The notes below the pieces were generated by a model, which saw nothing but the letters and a program-made list of their open reading frames with translations, searched no databases and had not been told where the DNA came from. DNA of 64,000 bases from Acidimicrobiia bacterium (GTDB lineage: Bacteria; Actinomycetota; Acidimicrobiia; Spongiisociales; ZC4RG35), in the NCBI GenBank assembly GCA_026002975.1, contig BPGJ01000002.1, forward strand, positions 62,001 through 126,000. The letters are read 5' to 3'. A program made the position numbers and the translations under genes. Below, piece after piece: positions 4,089 through 51,311 of this stretch (the stretch's first letter is position 1; every line of letters starts with the position of its first letter).

Positions 4089-6544
4089 GCGGGTTCGACG
4101 GTCACCCGGGGGTCGGAGCCGAGCGGGGGGCAGCCGGGCTGGTTGAACGGGACGTACACCACTCCCCGAGCCAGGCTCGGGTCGGTCACCACCGGCAGGG
4201 TGGCCGAACCCGACGAACCGACGACCCTCGCCCGAAACCCCAACCCCAGACGCGCGGCGTCGTCGGGATGCACGTGGAGGGCCGCTCCGGGAGCGAGACG
4301 GTGGAGATGCGGCGTGTGACGCATGGTCACCCCGTCGTCGTACATGGTCCTGGCAGAGTGGAGCACCAGATCGGCTTTGATGATCGGGCCGGGTGTGTCG
4401 GCCGGCAGGTACACCAACGGCTGGGTGCCCTCGCCGCCTGGGACCACCACCCCGTCCCTGGCTTCCCAGTCGAGGACGTCCCAGGTGACGCCCCGGTAGG
4501 CGGGGGCCACCTCGGCGATCTCCTTGGCGATCGCTTCAGCCGACCCGAACCCGAGACTCGACCCCATACGGCGAGCCAGGTCGTCGAGGATCGACCAGTC
4601 GGGTCGGCTCTGACCGGCTCCGGGGACGATGGCGTTCACCTTCTGGACCCGGCCCTCCAGATTGGTGACCGTCCCCTCCTTCTCGCCGAATCCGTCGGCG
4701 GGTAGCACCACATCGGCCCGGCCGGCCGAGTCGGTGAGGAAAAGGTCGACCGCCACCAGGAACGGGACCGCGTCGAGCGCCCGGTCCGCCAGGTCGCCGT
4801 CGGGTACGTCCCTGACCGGGTCGGCGCCGACCAGCAGCAGCGCCTGGATGTCGCCCGCCAGGGCACCTTCCAGGATCGATCGGCAGTCCCGCCCGGGTTT
4901 GCGGGGGATGTCCCCCCAGGCGGTGAAGGTCTCCTCGGAGATCGAGACTCGCCCGGGGAGGAGGGTCGGCGCCACCCCCATGTCCAAAGCCCCGTAGGTG
5001 TTGGCCCGCCGAGCGAGGGGAAGGATCTTGGCGTCGGGAAGGGTTCGCACGAACGCGGCGACCGCCTCGGCGAGTCTCGGGTCTTCGGTCGAGCCGGTCC
5101 GTCCCACCAGAGCCACCACCGGGCCTTCGGCCAACGCGGCCCGGACCTCGGCCAGGCGTCCCTCCCCGGCTCGGAGTTGGGCCAGGAGCTCGGCCCCCGA
5201 ACCGGGACGGTAGGTGAGTTTGAAGTCGGCCACCGGGTCGAGCCCGGTCGCCCGGGGGTGCACAACCACCAGGGTGGCGCCGGCCGCGGCGGCGAGGTGG
5301 GCATCCGAGTTGGACGACACCAGGCCGGGAACCGACCCTATGGCGGCTCTGCGCACCCTGAGGTAGAGGGTGGGATGTTCTTCCTTGAGGTCTGGGCCCC
5401 ACACCAGGATGGTCTTGGCCCGGTCGATGTCGGAGATGAGGGCCCGGTCGACGGTCGCGGCCAGGAACTCGGCGTCGAGGGTGTCGTCCATGCGGCAGTC
5501 CAGGTTGTTGGATCCGACCACGGTGCGCATGAACTTGGAAAGGGCGTAGGCGTCTTCGTTCGTGCCACGAGCTCCCCCCAGCGCCGCTACGGCGTCCGGT
5601 CCGGAGGTGCGGATGACGTCGCCCAGCCTCTGGGCGATCAGGTCGAGGGCTTCTCCCCAGGTGGCTTCCCGGAATCCGTCACCGTCTCTGATCAGAGGCA
5701 CGGTGAGTCGCTGGTCCGAGTTGATGTAGCCGAATCCGAAACGGCATTTGTCCGACAGCCATCCCTGGTTGGTGGCCTCCGCGTCGACTCCGAGGAAGCG
5801 GAGTATCTCGTTCTGGCTGGCTTGGATGACGATCCGGTCACCGGCGGTGCAGTGGGTGCAGGTCGACTCCACCGCCACCAGGTCCCAGGGGCGGGCCCGG
5901 AACCGGTAGAGGGTGGCGGTCAACGCCCCCACCGGGCAGATCTGGACGGTGTTGCCCGAGAAGTAGGACCTGAACGGGTGGTCGGGGAAGGTGTTCACCT
6001 CGGTGTGGTAGCCACGGTCGAGGAACTCGATCAGTGGGTCTCCCGACACCTCCTCGGAGAACCGGGTGCAGCGGGCACACAGGATGCAGCGTTCCCGGTC
6101 GAGCATCACCAGGTCGGAGATCGGGATCGGCTTCTCGAAGTGCCGTTTCTCCTCGACGAACCGGGACTCACCCGGTCCGTACGCCATGGTCTGGTCCTGC
6201 AGGGGGCATTCGCCACCCCGGTCGCACACCGGACAGTCGAGGGGATGGTTGATGAGGAGGAACTCGAGGATGCCCTCCTGGGCTTTCTTCACCGCCGGGT
6301 CGGTGGTGTCGACCTTCATCCCGTCGGCCACGGGCGTGGTGCACGCGGTGGTGAGCATCGGTCCCCGCCCGGAGTCGATGAAAACCAGGCACATGCGGCA
6401 CATGCCCACCGGTTTCATCCTGGGATGCCAGCAGAATCGGGGGATGTAGGTGCCGTTGTCCTGGGCGGCTTTGATCACCAGCTCGCCCTTGGGAACCTCC
6501 AGCTCCCGGCCGTCGACGACTATGCGCACTGTGTGTTCGCTCAT
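4085..6544 (-). CDS. nuoG: NADH-quinone oxidoreductase subunit G
   Basis: Large iron-sulfur subunit of complex I (819 aa). Domains in order: a [2Fe-2S] ferredoxin domain (cysteines in CWHPRMKPVGMCRMC, about residues 34-48), a His/Cys cluster segment ending GECPLQDQTMAYG, the ferredoxin pair beginning CILCARCTRF, and a long C-terminal molybdopterin-oxidoreductase-like domain without catalytic role in this family. The frame is open upstream inside nuoF, but the ATG at 6544 overlaps the nuoF stop (ATGA) and gives MSEHTVRIVVDGREL, the expected start. It is the last gene of the nuoABCD-gdh-nuoEFG run. Confidence 0.95.
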   Translation of the reverse strand: MSEHTVRIVVDGRELEVPKGELVIKAAQDNGTYIPRFCWHPRMKPVGMCRMCLVFIDSGRGPMLTTACTTPVADGMKVDTTDPAVKKAQEGILEFLLINHPLDCPVCDRGGECPLQDQTMAYGPGESRFVEEKRHFEKPIPISDLVMLDRERCILCARCTRFSEEVSGDPLIEFLDRGYHTEVNTFPDHPFRSYFSGNTVQICPVGALTATLYRFRARPWDLVAVESTCTHCTAGDRIVIQASQNEILRFLGVDAEATNQGWLSDKCRFGFGYINSDQRLTVPLIRDGDGFREATWGEALDLIAQRLGDVIRTSGPDAVAALGGARGTNEDAYALSKFMRTVVGSNNLDCRMDDTLDAEFLAATVDRALISDIDRAKTILVWGPDLKEEHPTLYLRVRRAAIGSVPGLVSSNSDAHLAAAAGATLVVVHPRATGLDPVADFKLTYRPGSGAELLAQLRAGEGRLAEVRAALAEGPVVALVGRTGSTEDPRLAEAVAAFVRTLPDAKILPLARRANTYGALDMGVAPTLLPGRVSISEETFTAWGDIPRKPGRDCRSILEGALAGDIQALLLVGADPVRDVPDGDLADRALDAVPFLVAVDLFLTDSAGRADVVLPADGFGEKEGTVTNLEGRVQKVNAIVPGAGQSRPDWSILDDLARRMGSSLGFGSAEAIAKEIAEVAPAYRGVTWDVLDWEARDGVVVPGGEGTQPLVYLPADTPGPIIKADLVLHSARTMYDDGVTMRHTPHLHRLAPGAALHVHPDDAARLGLGFRARVVGSSGSATLPVVTDPSLARGVVYVPFNQPGCPPLGSDPRVTVEPA

Positions 6545-7836
6545 CGGAGGGGGCACCCCGCCTGGTGGATGTGGGCCATGATCTCGTCCTTGAAGTAGCG
6601 GGTGATCGACGACACCGGGGAGACCGCCGAAGGGCCGAGGGGACAGATGGTGGTCATCCGGGGAGGCCATGCGAGCCCCACCGAGATGTTGTCGGCCACG
6701 TCCAGGAGGACGTCGACGTCGACCTCCCGCCCGGCGCCTTCCTCTATCCGGCCGAGGATCATCTCCAGCCAGCTCGTGCCCTCCCGACACGGGGTGCACT
6801 GCCCGCACGACTCGTGGGCGAAGAACCGGACGATCCTCTGGGCGGCCCGCACCACACAGGTCGTGTCGTCCATCACCACCACCGCACCGGATCCGAGCAT
6901 CGATCCGGCCCGTCCGGTGGCGTCCTTGGTGATCTCCAGGTCGAGGTGGTCGGCGGGCACGAACCAGGGGGCGGATGCACCGCCGGGTATCCAGCATTTG
7001 AGGGTGCGGCCCTCACGGAGACCGCCGGCCACCTCGAAGATCAACTCCCGCCAGGTGATGCCGTGGGGCAGCTCGTAGTTGCCGGGTTTCCTGACGTGTC
7101 CCGACACCGAGAACAGGAAGGTGCCGGTGTCTTCGGGATGGCCGAGCTTCCTGAACCCGTCGGCGCCCAGCTCGAGGATGTGGGGCAGGTTGGAGATCGT
7201 CTCCACGTTGTTGACGATGGTGGGTTTGCCGTACAGCCCGGTGGCGGCCGGGAAATACGGCGGTTTGAGCCGCGGCTCGCCCCGGTGCCCCTCCAGCGAG
7301 TTGAGGAGGGCGGTCTCCTCCCCGCATATGTAGGCGCCGGCCCCCAGGTGGACGACCACCTCCAGGTCGTAGTCGGAGCCGAAGATGTCTTTCCCCAGGT
7401 AACCCCGGCCGTAGGCTTCTTCGACCGCCCGCTGGAGTCTCCGGGCCGGCCGGGCGTATTCCCCCCGGACGTACACGAAGGCGTGGTGCACCTCGTTGGC
7501 CACCGCGGCGATGATGATCCCCTCGACCAGCTGGTGGGGGTCCCGCTCGAGGAGTTGACGGTCCTTGTAGGTGCCGGGTTCGGACTCGTCGGCGTTGACC
7601 ACCAGGTAGGCGGGGCGGGCCGGGGCGAGGAAGCTCCACTTCATACCCGCCGGGAACGCGGCACCACCTCGACCCAGGAGACCCGACTCCTTGACCAGCT
7701 CGACCAACCGCTCACGTCCCATCTGGAGGCTGCGGCGGGCCTGGCTGTAACCACCGGTGGCTTCGTAGCGTTCGATGGTGTGGGAGTCGGCCGGATGGTC
7801 GGCCATCCTCCGGGTGACGAGCCTCGTCTCGTTCAA
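6541..7836 (-). CDS. nuoF: NADH-quinone oxidoreductase subunit F, TTG start
   Basis: NADH- and FMN-binding catalytic subunit of complex I (431 aa). Seen are the FMN/NADH segment GLLGRGGAAFPAGMKW, the motif GAGAYICGEETALLNSLEG, and the [4Fe-4S] (N3) motif ESCGQCTPCREG near the C-terminus. I choose the TTG at 7836: it overlaps the nuoE TGA, follows a purine-rich ribosome site (GGGAGGGAGAG), and adds the residues NETRLVTRRMADHP that align with the usual actinobacterial N-terminus. The first in-frame ATG would remove that conserved part. Confidence 0.93.
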   Translation of the reverse strand: MNETRLVTRRMADHPADSHTIERYEATGGYSQARRSLQMGRERLVELVKESGLLGRGGAAFPAGMKWSFLAPARPAYLVVNADESEPGTYKDRQLLERDPHQLVEGIIIAAVANEVHHAFVYVRGEYARPARRLQRAVEEAYGRGYLGKDIFGSDYDLEVVVHLGAGAYICGEETALLNSLEGHRGEPRLKPPYFPAATGLYGKPTIVNNVETISNLPHILELGADGFRKLGHPEDTGTFLFSVSGHVRKPGNYELPHGITWRELIFEVAGGLREGRTLKCWIPGGASAPWFVPADHLDLEITKDATGRAGSMLGSGAVVVMDDTTCVVRAAQRIVRFFAHESCGQCTPCREGTSWLEMILGRIEEGAGREVDVDVLLDVADNISVGLAWPPRMTTICPLGPSAVSPVSSITRYFKDEIMAHIHQAGCPLR

Positions 7837-48686: not shown

Positions 48687-49361
48687 TCAGTCGGTCTCCA
48701 GCAGCCGCTGGATTGCCTCGGTGAACCGGTCCATCTCTTCCACGTAGGCCTTGGAATCCTCGGCTATCTCCTCTGAGAACCGGCGGTGGCGCAGTCCCAT
48801 GGCGAGGGCCGCGAAGCGGGCCCCTCGGAAATAGGGGATCAGGGCTTCCAGCGACATGGCCCTCGGGCCCGGCTGTGGTGGGCCGATCTCCGGAGGGGGC
48901 TGGGTGGTGGGTTCGAGTCCCAGCTCGCGGACCCGGTCGAGTGCATCTGCTTCGGGGAGCCGGTCGGCGTAGTCGCGAGACTCGAACCGCCACGCCTCCT
49001 CGCCTCCCGGACGGAGCAGCACCATCGCCGGGCGGGCGATGTTGCGAGGGTCCTGGGGGTCGGCCACCCCGAACGGCTCTATCAGCGCTCGCCGGTCCGG
49101 GTCGGACAGGAGCGGGAAGGGAAGCCGCAGCTTCTCGATCATCGCCGAGTTCCGTCCCGGGTCGTCGACCGAGACACCGAACAGCCTCGCACCCGCAGCG
49201 AGGAACTCGGCGTGTCTCTCAGCCAGGCTGACCAGCTGGCCGTTGCAATACGGTCACCAGTCGCCCCGCAGGAAGACGAGGAGGACACCAGCATCCAAGT
49301 GGTCGGAGAGCCGCCATGGCCTCCCGGCGGGATCGGTCGCCGGTGGAAGCGTTTCGTACAT
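48687..49361 (-). CDS. peroxiredoxin-like selenoprotein with in-frame UGA (Sec)
   Basis: 224 aa if the UGA at 49254-49256 is read as selenocysteine. The frame is otherwise continuous from ATG 49361 (AGGAG nine bases upstream) to the stop at 48687. The UGA falls exactly in the redox motif: GDW-U-PYCNGQLVSLAERH, where homologues have GDWCPYC. Downstream sequence is a normal AhpC/TSA-like fold (RLFGVSVDDPGRNS; LPFPLLSDPDRRALIEPFGV). A 7 bp hairpin with GGUC in its loop begins 14 bases after the UGA start. Likely a thiol/selenol peroxidase or oxidoreductase. A naive gene caller would give a 151-residue fragment at 48687-49142 and lose the active site. Confidence 0.85.
49220..49242 (-). promoter_or_regulatory. 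putative bacterial SECIS element
   Basis: In the mRNA, counting U of UGA as 1, bases 15-21 (CGGCCAG) pair with 31-37 (CUGGCUG, one G-U), leaving the nine-base loop CUGGUCAGC. Position, stem size and the GGUC in the loop resemble the E. coli fdhF SECIS bound by SelB. Confidence 0.6.
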
Positions 49362-49448: not shown

Positions 49449-50513
49449 TCAGTCGCTCACGACTACTTGGGCGAGGAGAGTGCCCGACCGCTCCAGCTCC
49501 AACTCGAAGACGCCTGGTACGTCGGCGGTGAAAACCAGCCTGGCCGGCTCCTCGGGGGAAATGGGGACGAGCACCTCGTAGCCGTGAAGGTGCACCTGGT
49601 CGCTGACGTCCCCGGCGACGATCAGCTCCACCACCGTGCCCAGGGCGATCTCCACCCGCTCGGGTGTCTCGACGTCGGCACGGAGCTCGATCGTCTGATC
49701 GATCTGGGTGGGTGTTCCCTCCACCTCGACGGTGGCAATGGCGTCGACCGGGGTGCCGTCGACCACATAGGGAAGGTGGTCGTTCCCGTAGAGCGCCACT
49801 CGGATCTCCCGGCTTCCAGGCTCCAGGCTCTCCAAGTGGTACGCAGCACCGTAGAGCCGGGCGACCTTCTGGCCGTCCACGTACAGGTGGCCGTGGCCTT
49901 CCCCGGGCACGTGCGCCCCTGAGGCCCGCTCCGGGGCGAAGACGAACCCGGCAGTGTCGACGAACACATTCCAACCACCCACCGGATCCTCCACGACCAT
50001 GAGGGACACCTCCATTCCGGTCCCGTCGTGCGCGGCATCGCCCCCGTGAGAGTGATCACCGTGGCCCTCCCCCGGCTCCGGCACCTCGACCAAGACGGTG
50101 TCCGCGACCGGCTCACCATCGGCCGCGTAGACGGCGTGATCGTTGGCGGTCAGATCCACCCTCAGCTCGTGGCTCCCCAGCTGGAGTCCGTCGAGGTGAA
50201 ACCATGGGGTGTACACACGCGCCACCTTTCGACCATCGACGTAGACGTGGGCGTGACCCTCCCCGGGCACGTGAGGGCCTGAGGCCGACTCCGGCGCCCA
50301 CGTGAACCGCTCAGTGACCAAGTGCAAGTTCACCCCGCTCACCGGGTCGGGGCTCACCTCTACTTCCAGGGTGGGAGCCTCACTGGCAGGAAGATCGTGT
50401 ACGTCATCATGGGTGTGTCCGGCTTCGGAGACGGGGTCGGACTGGGCAGCAGGGGAACAGGCGCTGGCCAACGCGGCCAACACGGCGGCCACCGCCAACA
50501 AGCGAACAGACAT
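49449..50513 (-). CDS. lipoprotein with two His-rich repeats and cupredoxin-like end
   Basis: 354 aa. Lipobox ASAC. Two tandem repeats of about 110 residues share HVPGEGHxHxYVDGxKVARxY, then HL-x-x-L and NDHxxY (residues about 80-145 and 190-255); between them is GHGDHSHGGDAAHDG. The last 80 residues look cupredoxin-like (GTVVELIVAGDVSDQVHLHG). Many histidines suggest copper or other metal binding at the cell surface. Follows a His-containing membrane protein gene on the same strand. I do not know a named family for the whole protein. Confidence 0.8.
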   Translation of the reverse strand: MSVRLLAVAAVLAALASACSPAAQSDPVSEAGHTHDDVHDLPASEAPTLEVEVSPDPVSGVNLHLVTERFTWAPESASGPHVPGEGHAHVYVDGRKVARVYTPWFHLDGLQLGSHELRVDLTANDHAVYAADGEPVADTVLVEVPEPGEGHGDHSHGGDAAHDGTGMEVSLMVVEDPVGGWNVFVDTAGFVFAPERASGAHVPGEGHGHLYVDGQKVARLYGAAYHLESLEPGSREIRVALYGNDHLPYVVDGTPVDAIATVEVEGTPTQIDQTIELRADVETPERVEIALGTVVELIVAGDVSDQVHLHGYEVLVPISPEEPARLVFTADVPGVFELELERSGTLLAQVVVSD

Positions 50514-50544: not shown

Positions 50545-50569
50545 CGACGCGGGCGTCACGCCCGCGTCG
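50545..50569 (-). terminator. intercistronic hairpin with the stop codon in its loop
   Basis: Perfect 11 bp stem CGACGCGGGCG / CGCCCGCGTCG with a three-base loop; that loop (50556-50558) is the TGA stop of the upstream membrane-protein gene. It may act as an attenuator or mRNA stabiliser between the two genes. Confidence 0.45.
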
Positions 50570-51110
50570 GGGGACCCCGAAGGCGAAGCGTCACCATCGG
50601 CACCGCAGCTGGCCGAAGGGACGCAACAGGAGCTACCAAACCGAGGTCGGGAACGGCTAGGCCGACAAAGGAGAGCGAAGGAATCCGACGGAGGACCCGT
50701 CCGCCCACCCGCACGGTCAGCGACAGCGCCGCCGCTACTACCGCCTGCACACCGAGGCCCGCCCACAGCGCAGGGTCGGCGAACAACGCAAAGAGTGAGC
50801 TGCCGATAGCGAGCCGCTCCCCAGCCTCCTGGACCAAGAACAACGTCGCTTGCAGAGCGAGCAGACCGGGTAGTCGGAGGCGACCAGGTCGTCTGGCCTC
50901 GGCTGCGGTGAGCCGCACGATCGCCACCAAGGCGAACGGCGCCAACAGCAGCGCCAGCAAGTGGAGATAGCCGTGAACGGCGTCGTGGGCATGCCCGTCC
51001 GTGTGCGGGAGGGCGTACACCACTGCGTGACCCAGGAGCACACCGGAGGCGGCTGCCAGTAGGCGGGCGGTGGTCAGCTTCCCCACGATGAGCGACAGGG
51101 TATCCACCAC
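50556..51110 (-). CDS. multi-helix membrane protein with His-rich loop
   Basis: About 184 aa from GTG 51110 (start uncertain; GTG at 51107 or 51140 also possible). Five hydrophobic segments; the first loop is LPHTDGHAHDAVHGYLH, a likely metal-binding site. Not a family I can name. Paired with the downstream His-rich lipoprotein, which suggests a joint role in copper or other metal handling. Confidence 0.7.
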   Translation of the reverse strand: MVDTLSLIVGKLTTARLLAAASGVLLGHAVVYALPHTDGHAHDAVHGYLHLLALLLAPFALVAIVRLTAAEARRPGRLRLPGLLALQATLFLVQEAGERLAIGSSLFALFADPALWAGLGVQAVVAAALSLTVRVGGRVLRRIPSLSFVGLAVPDLGLVAPVASLRPAAVPMVTLRLRGPPTRA

Positions 51111-51311
51111 CTCGATCGAGCGAAATGCGCACCTCCGCACCCGGCTCCCGCGATTTCCTCTCAGTGACGAACCCCCGTCGGCGAATCGGCACCACCGCCG
51201 TGTCCCGCATCCCTTCCCCGTCAGCCAAGGGACGACCAGGGCCCTCCGGTCGGACCTATGAGAGCCCGACAGTGGACCGGGAAACCCGCGCGCTGTGAGG
51301 GGTTTGTGTCG

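Follow-up and report, generated by a model that had tools for sequence, protein, structure and literature searches.

A predicted selenoprotein gene for a peroxiredoxin-like UxxC protein in Acidimicrobiia, with a conserved in-frame UGA and a putative SECIS hairpin

The minus strand of the window (the whole 64,000-nucleotide stretch of Acidimicrobiia DNA analysed here) carries a reading frame of 224 codons whose sole interruption is a UGA at codon 36 and whose ATG is preceded by a Shine-Dalgarno-like AGGAG (Table 1). The original prediction held that two apparently separate ORFs are one frame broken only by this UGA, lying within GDW-U-PYC, and this proved correct in every coordinate, read-through giving a 224-residue product. 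Standard ORF calling truncates the gene, as had been anticipated, yielding just a 151-residue piece (48687-49142) that starts at a downstream ATG and lacks the redox motif. In DNA this rich in GC, open frames across a UGA are common: at 261 TGAs in the window the frame stays open for 30 codons or more upstream and for at least 45 downstream. The frame alone thus proves little and was dropped as evidence for selenocysteine (Sec); it is comparison with homologues that carries the case. A composition scan of the window for further UGA-containing genes gave no other candidate that we judged convincing.

Table 1. Features of the peroxiredoxin-like gene and its putative RNA signal, in window coordinates.
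Feature	Position	Strand	Details or supporting evidence
Predicted Sec-containing peroxiredoxin-like (UxxC) gene	48687..49361	-	224 aa; ATG 49361; ordinary UGA stop 48687-48689
In-frame UGA, predicted to be read as Sec (residue 36, RGDW-U-PYC)	49254..49256	-	UGA conservation in homologues
UxxC redox motif, Sec36-Pro-Tyr-Cys39	49245..49256	-	Invariant residues in alignment
Putative bacterial SECIS hairpin	49220..49242	-	Synonymous freeze, pair counts, relaxation in non-Sec orthologues
Hairpin, 5' arm	49234-49242	-	
Hairpin, apical loop	49230-49233	-	GGUC
Hairpin, 3' arm	49220-49229	-	One bulged base
C-terminal extension beyond thioredoxin-fold domain	48690..48851	-	Predicted long helices, residues 171-191 and 197-223 (AlphaFold)

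No conserved neighbour of the gene was found across its homologous loci. In the window it is followed by a branched-chain amino-acid-type ABC transporter and preceded by a putative lipoprotein and a putative membrane protein. The former (49452-50513, minus strand) is His-rich with a repeated GHxHLYVDGxKVARxY segment, the latter (50559-51140, minus strand) adjoins it, and neither has a Pfam match. A thiamine-pyrophosphate enzyme lies beside nine loci and was considered as a partner, but was rejected because the enzymes belong to different families (pyruvate-oxidase-like and benzoylformate-decarboxylase-like). At locus L053 the gene directly downstream (4714-6675) encodes a pyruvate-oxidase-like thiamine-pyrophosphate enzyme to which a Rieske [2Fe-2S] domain is fused, and L058 (4581-6515) has a protein comparable to it in length and match.

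Homologous loci were obtained by searching relatives at the protein level and by scanning 84,980 species. The UGA is present at codon 36 in all of the first 75, which are partly the same genes (57 are distinct around the UGA), with the frame conserved on both sides. These loci are spread over Acidimicrobiia, Rubrobacteraceae, Chloroflexota, Euzebyaceae and Actinomycetospora (one Pseudonocardiaceae). Cultured carriers of the gene include Rubrobacter marinus and Actinomycetospora cinnamomea. A wider set came from a profile search over 397 genomes of the phylum, and most of its members likewise have U at position 36. Among 35 aligned sequences, R32, G33, D34, U36, Y38 and C39 are invariant. It is very improbable, then, that the UGA is a real stop separating a 35-residue peptide from a 151-residue protein: the ATG at 49142 exists and mechanical ORF calling splits the gene in just this way, but the division would sever the active site of a single thioredoxin-fold domain from the domain core, would part invariant residues that flank the UGA on both sides, and would leave C39-S45 in no product. 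For Acidimicrobiia our literature search found no relevant paper that names a selenoprotein; a 2006 paper (PMC1794560) credits Rubrobacter xylanophilus with five. A second, distant peroxiredoxin-like subfamily with the signature RGDWUPYCC(A/G)Q and a UGA at the same position was also seen (L101, L102, L154 and L155), two of its members, L101 and L102, having a C-terminal YFRG-type segment.

The original prediction would have fallen if selA, selB or tRNA-Sec were absent from the genome; these genes, and selD as well, were all found in the source assembly, a fragmented draft of 2.33 Mb and 84.6% completeness. The tRNA-Sec is on contig 1 (Rfam score 74.7 bits; called by ARAGORN as SeC with anticodon TCA), while selB (329 bits) and selA (445 bits) adjoin on contig 7, both above curated cut-offs. 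Contig 1 also bears selD, whose own active site, N-terminal HGAG-U-ACK, carries a UGA; this is the usual Sec site of SelD, so that the assembly contains at least one other selenoprotein gene. The selD gene lies on the minus strand of L018, between about 1991 and 1070 (239504-240413 of contig 1), and its frame appears to shift near L018:1510, probably through an error of sequencing or assembly. Selenoproteins had been supposed uncommon in actinobacteria; in this group they are not, selA being present in 118 of 149 relatives. The peroxiredoxin-like gene is carried by 42 of these, 38 of them with selA. Two of the four remaining carriers have tRNA-Sec and selB (G114 and G135) and a third has selB (G069); in the fourth, G029, which is 75% complete, searches for selA, selB and tRNA-Sec found none of them. 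Among relatives at least 90% complete, selA is present in 21/21 carriers, compared with 74/89 overall (p = 0.012).

Downstream of the UGA the mRNA can form the 7-bp stem with a nine-base, GGUC-containing loop that had been proposed, but the form that is conserved is tighter: GCU-GGUC-AGC, with GGUC as the loop, a one-base bulge, and the loop 20 nt after the UGA. Codons 41-45 thereby give GGCCAGCU-GGUC-AGC-n-UGGCn. The GGUC loop sequence resembles that of the E. coli fdhF SECIS. The bacterial SECIS model has a loop of 3-9 nt, a stem of 4-16 bp, a G in the first two loop positions and a loop 16-37 nt from the UGA (PMC13188914); the hairpin agrees with it, having a GGUC loop 20 nt from the UGA and a stem of 8-9 bp with one bulge. 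Rfam gave nothing above gathering scores at the locus, and the predicted folding energy was no better than that of shuffled sequences (z = -0.45), so that folding energy was dropped as evidence for the hairpin. As with the read-through frame, only conservation makes the hairpin significant.

That conservation is evident at the RNA level. Synonymous codons are frozen at positions 41-45, whereas the rest of the gene varies much more freely: Gln42 is CAG in 57/57 sequences, Val44 is GUC in 46/49 and Ser45 is AGC in 54/54, in contrast to Ser86, for which six codons are in use. The freeze persists in 30 genes obtained from the protein search alone and is therefore not an artefact of the DNA patterns used in the species scan. 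Over 34 sequences, helix pairing was found in 91.9% of cells, compared with at most 45.6% when the helix was slid along the alignment, and the pairing percentage and covariation score exceeded all 500 shuffles as well as every slid version. Changes compensated on both sides are confined to one stem pair, in which the C at the Gly wobble position and the G of the Ala codon are replaced by A-U or G-U in five of the sequences counted. The structure is not uniform: in Rubrobacteraceae and Chloroflexota the loop is the same, the bulge has two bases and the lower stem is shifted, and for some Sec-containing members (L042, L046, L049 and a GUUGGCC group) a different or wobble-containing hairpin is needed.

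Both the UGA conservation and the synonymous constraint bear on whether the UGA is simply a nonsense mutation in a pseudogene or a misread Cys codon. The fragmented state of the draft and the apparent frameshift in its selD could be cited for such an error, but in 75 loci a UGA stands at this codon, in a frame conserved to either side, and synonymous positions are constrained downstream. This refutes the idea in practice, and we give it a negligible chance.

The profile search of 397 genomes also yielded ten non-Sec orthologues, of which eight have Cys (full-length or near-full-length), one Ser and one Asp at the Sec position. All belong to a single family (f34) grouping with Rubrobacteraceae. 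The assumption that homologues have GDWCPYC holds for this derived Rubrobacteraceae group only; nearly all orthologues have U. In a maximum-likelihood tree the ten nest inside the Sec forms of Rubrobacteraceae, with one or two changes needed. This suggests that Sec is the older form here, and it is apparently the ancestral state in the subfamily. Two genomes (G434 and G522) keep a Sec copy alongside a non-Sec copy, some of the latter thus being paralogues, and selB is still present in several genomes with non-Sec copies. At the two loci where Ser or Asp replaces Sec (L147 and L148) the substitution would probably abolish UxxC redox chemistry, and these are possibly repurposed or decaying copies. 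More distant Rubrobacteraceae copies (L150 and L151) have RGDWCAYD and GGDWSAYD, in which neither Sec nor the second Cys remains.

Where Sec is replaced, the hairpin codons tend to go too. GUC at the Val44 codon is found in 51/66 Sec sequences and 1/10 non-Sec sequences, and AGC at codon 45 in 60/66 and 4/10, respectively, all four counts ignoring relatedness. Some Cys copies (L131 and L137) still keep a hairpin, as expected if their loss of Sec was recent. This relaxation bears on the idea that the UGA is read as tryptophan or cysteine, or by general read-through, with no selenium involved. A full-length protein would result in that case too, but the same gene also terminates at UGA, the genome holds a full Sec system, and replacement of the UGA goes with a preferential loss of the hairpin codons; moreover, W35 already precedes the UGA and the non-UGA orthologues are mostly Cys and never Trp. 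We consider selenium-free decoding very unlikely. The odds seem even to us that part of the protein is dictated by the RNA signal, with Val44-Ser45 being kept because GUC-AGC build the SECIS and drifting once Sec is replaced (position 44 then being mostly Ala, and 45 Ala, Ser, Thr or Gly), with Sec ancestral and the Rubrobacteraceae copies reverting.

The protein matches the Pfam AhpC-TSA family (PF00578) at 75.3 bits, against a cut-off of 26. Its AlphaFold model has a mean pLDDT of 95.3, and Foldseek matches over the first 150 or so residues include Bcp4, PrxQ, AhpE and ResA (3c71). The model points to a peroxiredoxin/ResA-like fold with two extra C-terminal helices, in which Y177, R179, G180 and R191 are conserved. 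In sequence alignment Sec36 corresponds to the first Cys of the ResA WCxxC and to the Thr in the TxxC motif of peroxiredoxins, and Cys39 to the peroxidatic Cys. The UGA had been predicted to replace the active-site Cys of a peroxiredoxin-like protein; it does take the place of a Cys, the N-terminal one in a CxxC of thioredoxin type, but not that of the peroxidatic Cys.

This placement affects the predicted chemistry. The canonical peroxiredoxin motif PxxxT/SxxC is replaced by RxxxUxxC, with the invariant Arg32 at the position of the peroxiredoxin Pro; Arg110, aligned with the peroxiredoxin active-site Arg, is kept in only 19/35 sequences, while 34/35 keep Pro111, whose position resembles that of the thioredoxin cis-Pro. 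Taken together, these residues lead us to prefer a peroxiredoxin scaffold working by UxxC chemistry of the thioredoxin type. The alternative of a true peroxiredoxin, in which Cys39 would be peroxidatic and Sec36 would have a supporting role, fits the closeness of the fold to Bcp/PrxQ/AhpE and the alignment of C39, but sits poorly with the altered motif and with the frequent absence of R110 beside a P111 that is nearly always retained; we view it as an unlikely variant of the selenoprotein reading, one concerning the chemistry only. With Sec at the thioredoxin-type position, we expect the protein to be of the 'Prx-like UxxC' selenoprotein kind and to act as a thiol:disulfide oxidoreductase or a thiol peroxidase.

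UxxC peroxiredoxin-like selenoproteins have been described before (PMC1088965, PMC2398784, PMC13188914), the peroxiredoxin-like thiol:disulfide oxidoreductases appearing as 'Prx-like 1' in PMC2398784 and in the table of PMC13188914. The protein described here shares with that class (PF00578) the AhpC/TSA domain, UxxC, Sec at the thioredoxin-type position and a SECIS inside the coding region. It differs in its C-terminal helical extension, its signature RGDWUPYCNGQLVS and the commonness and apparent ancestry of Sec, although it is set apart from the class representative WP_010940744.1 by description rather than sequence and the subfamily may already be counted there. No NCBIfam model scored above its cut-off. 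The best match, the SelL-related redox protein NF040769, reached 40.3 bits over residues 9-92, far under its cut-off of 120 and leaving the C-terminal part uncovered. PrxU (NF040737) and the TxxU Sec peroxiredoxins share the peroxiredoxin fold, some with Sec, but theirs is at the peroxidatic position, three residues later than here, and NF040737 scored 25.6 against a cut-off of 270. The ResA/TlpA thiol-disulfide oxidoreductases resemble the protein in having WCxxC aligned with WUxxC and, for ResA, in the Foldseek match; ResA, however, is membrane-anchored and extracytoplasmic with Cys, whereas inspection by eye revealed no obvious signal sequence here. As far as these tools show, this is a new subfamily of a known kind, lacking its own family model, and not a new kind of system.

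On the genomic evidence, then, we consider the gene a genuine selenoprotein gene, its UGA decoded as Sec in a peroxiredoxin-fold UxxC redox protein, with a probability of about 0.95. Decoding at codon 36 would be carried out by the genome's own SelA, SelB, tRNA-Sec and SelD, directed by the downstream hairpin within the coding region. In the sequence of events that we infer, Sec36, at the N-terminal end of the active-site helix, would attack an oxidised substrate (a disulfide or peroxide), Cys39 would form a Se-S bond in resolving the intermediate, and thioredoxin or mycothiol, or a like cellular thiol system, would recharge the enzyme, the location being probably cytosolic.

The finding adds a Sec-rich subfamily that extends across Acidimicrobiia, Rubrobacteraceae and Chloroflexota. 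Because Pfam and NCBIfam have no specific model of it, gene callers are likely to lose the active site of its members. The Sec, Cys, Ser and Asp orthologues of Rubrobacteraceae, with their graded decay of the SECIS, offer a useful system for testing the contribution of selenium and the course of Sec loss and, if the RNA signal does set part of the protein, the Rubrobacteraceae copies would be a natural series on how a selenoprotein gene is un-made.
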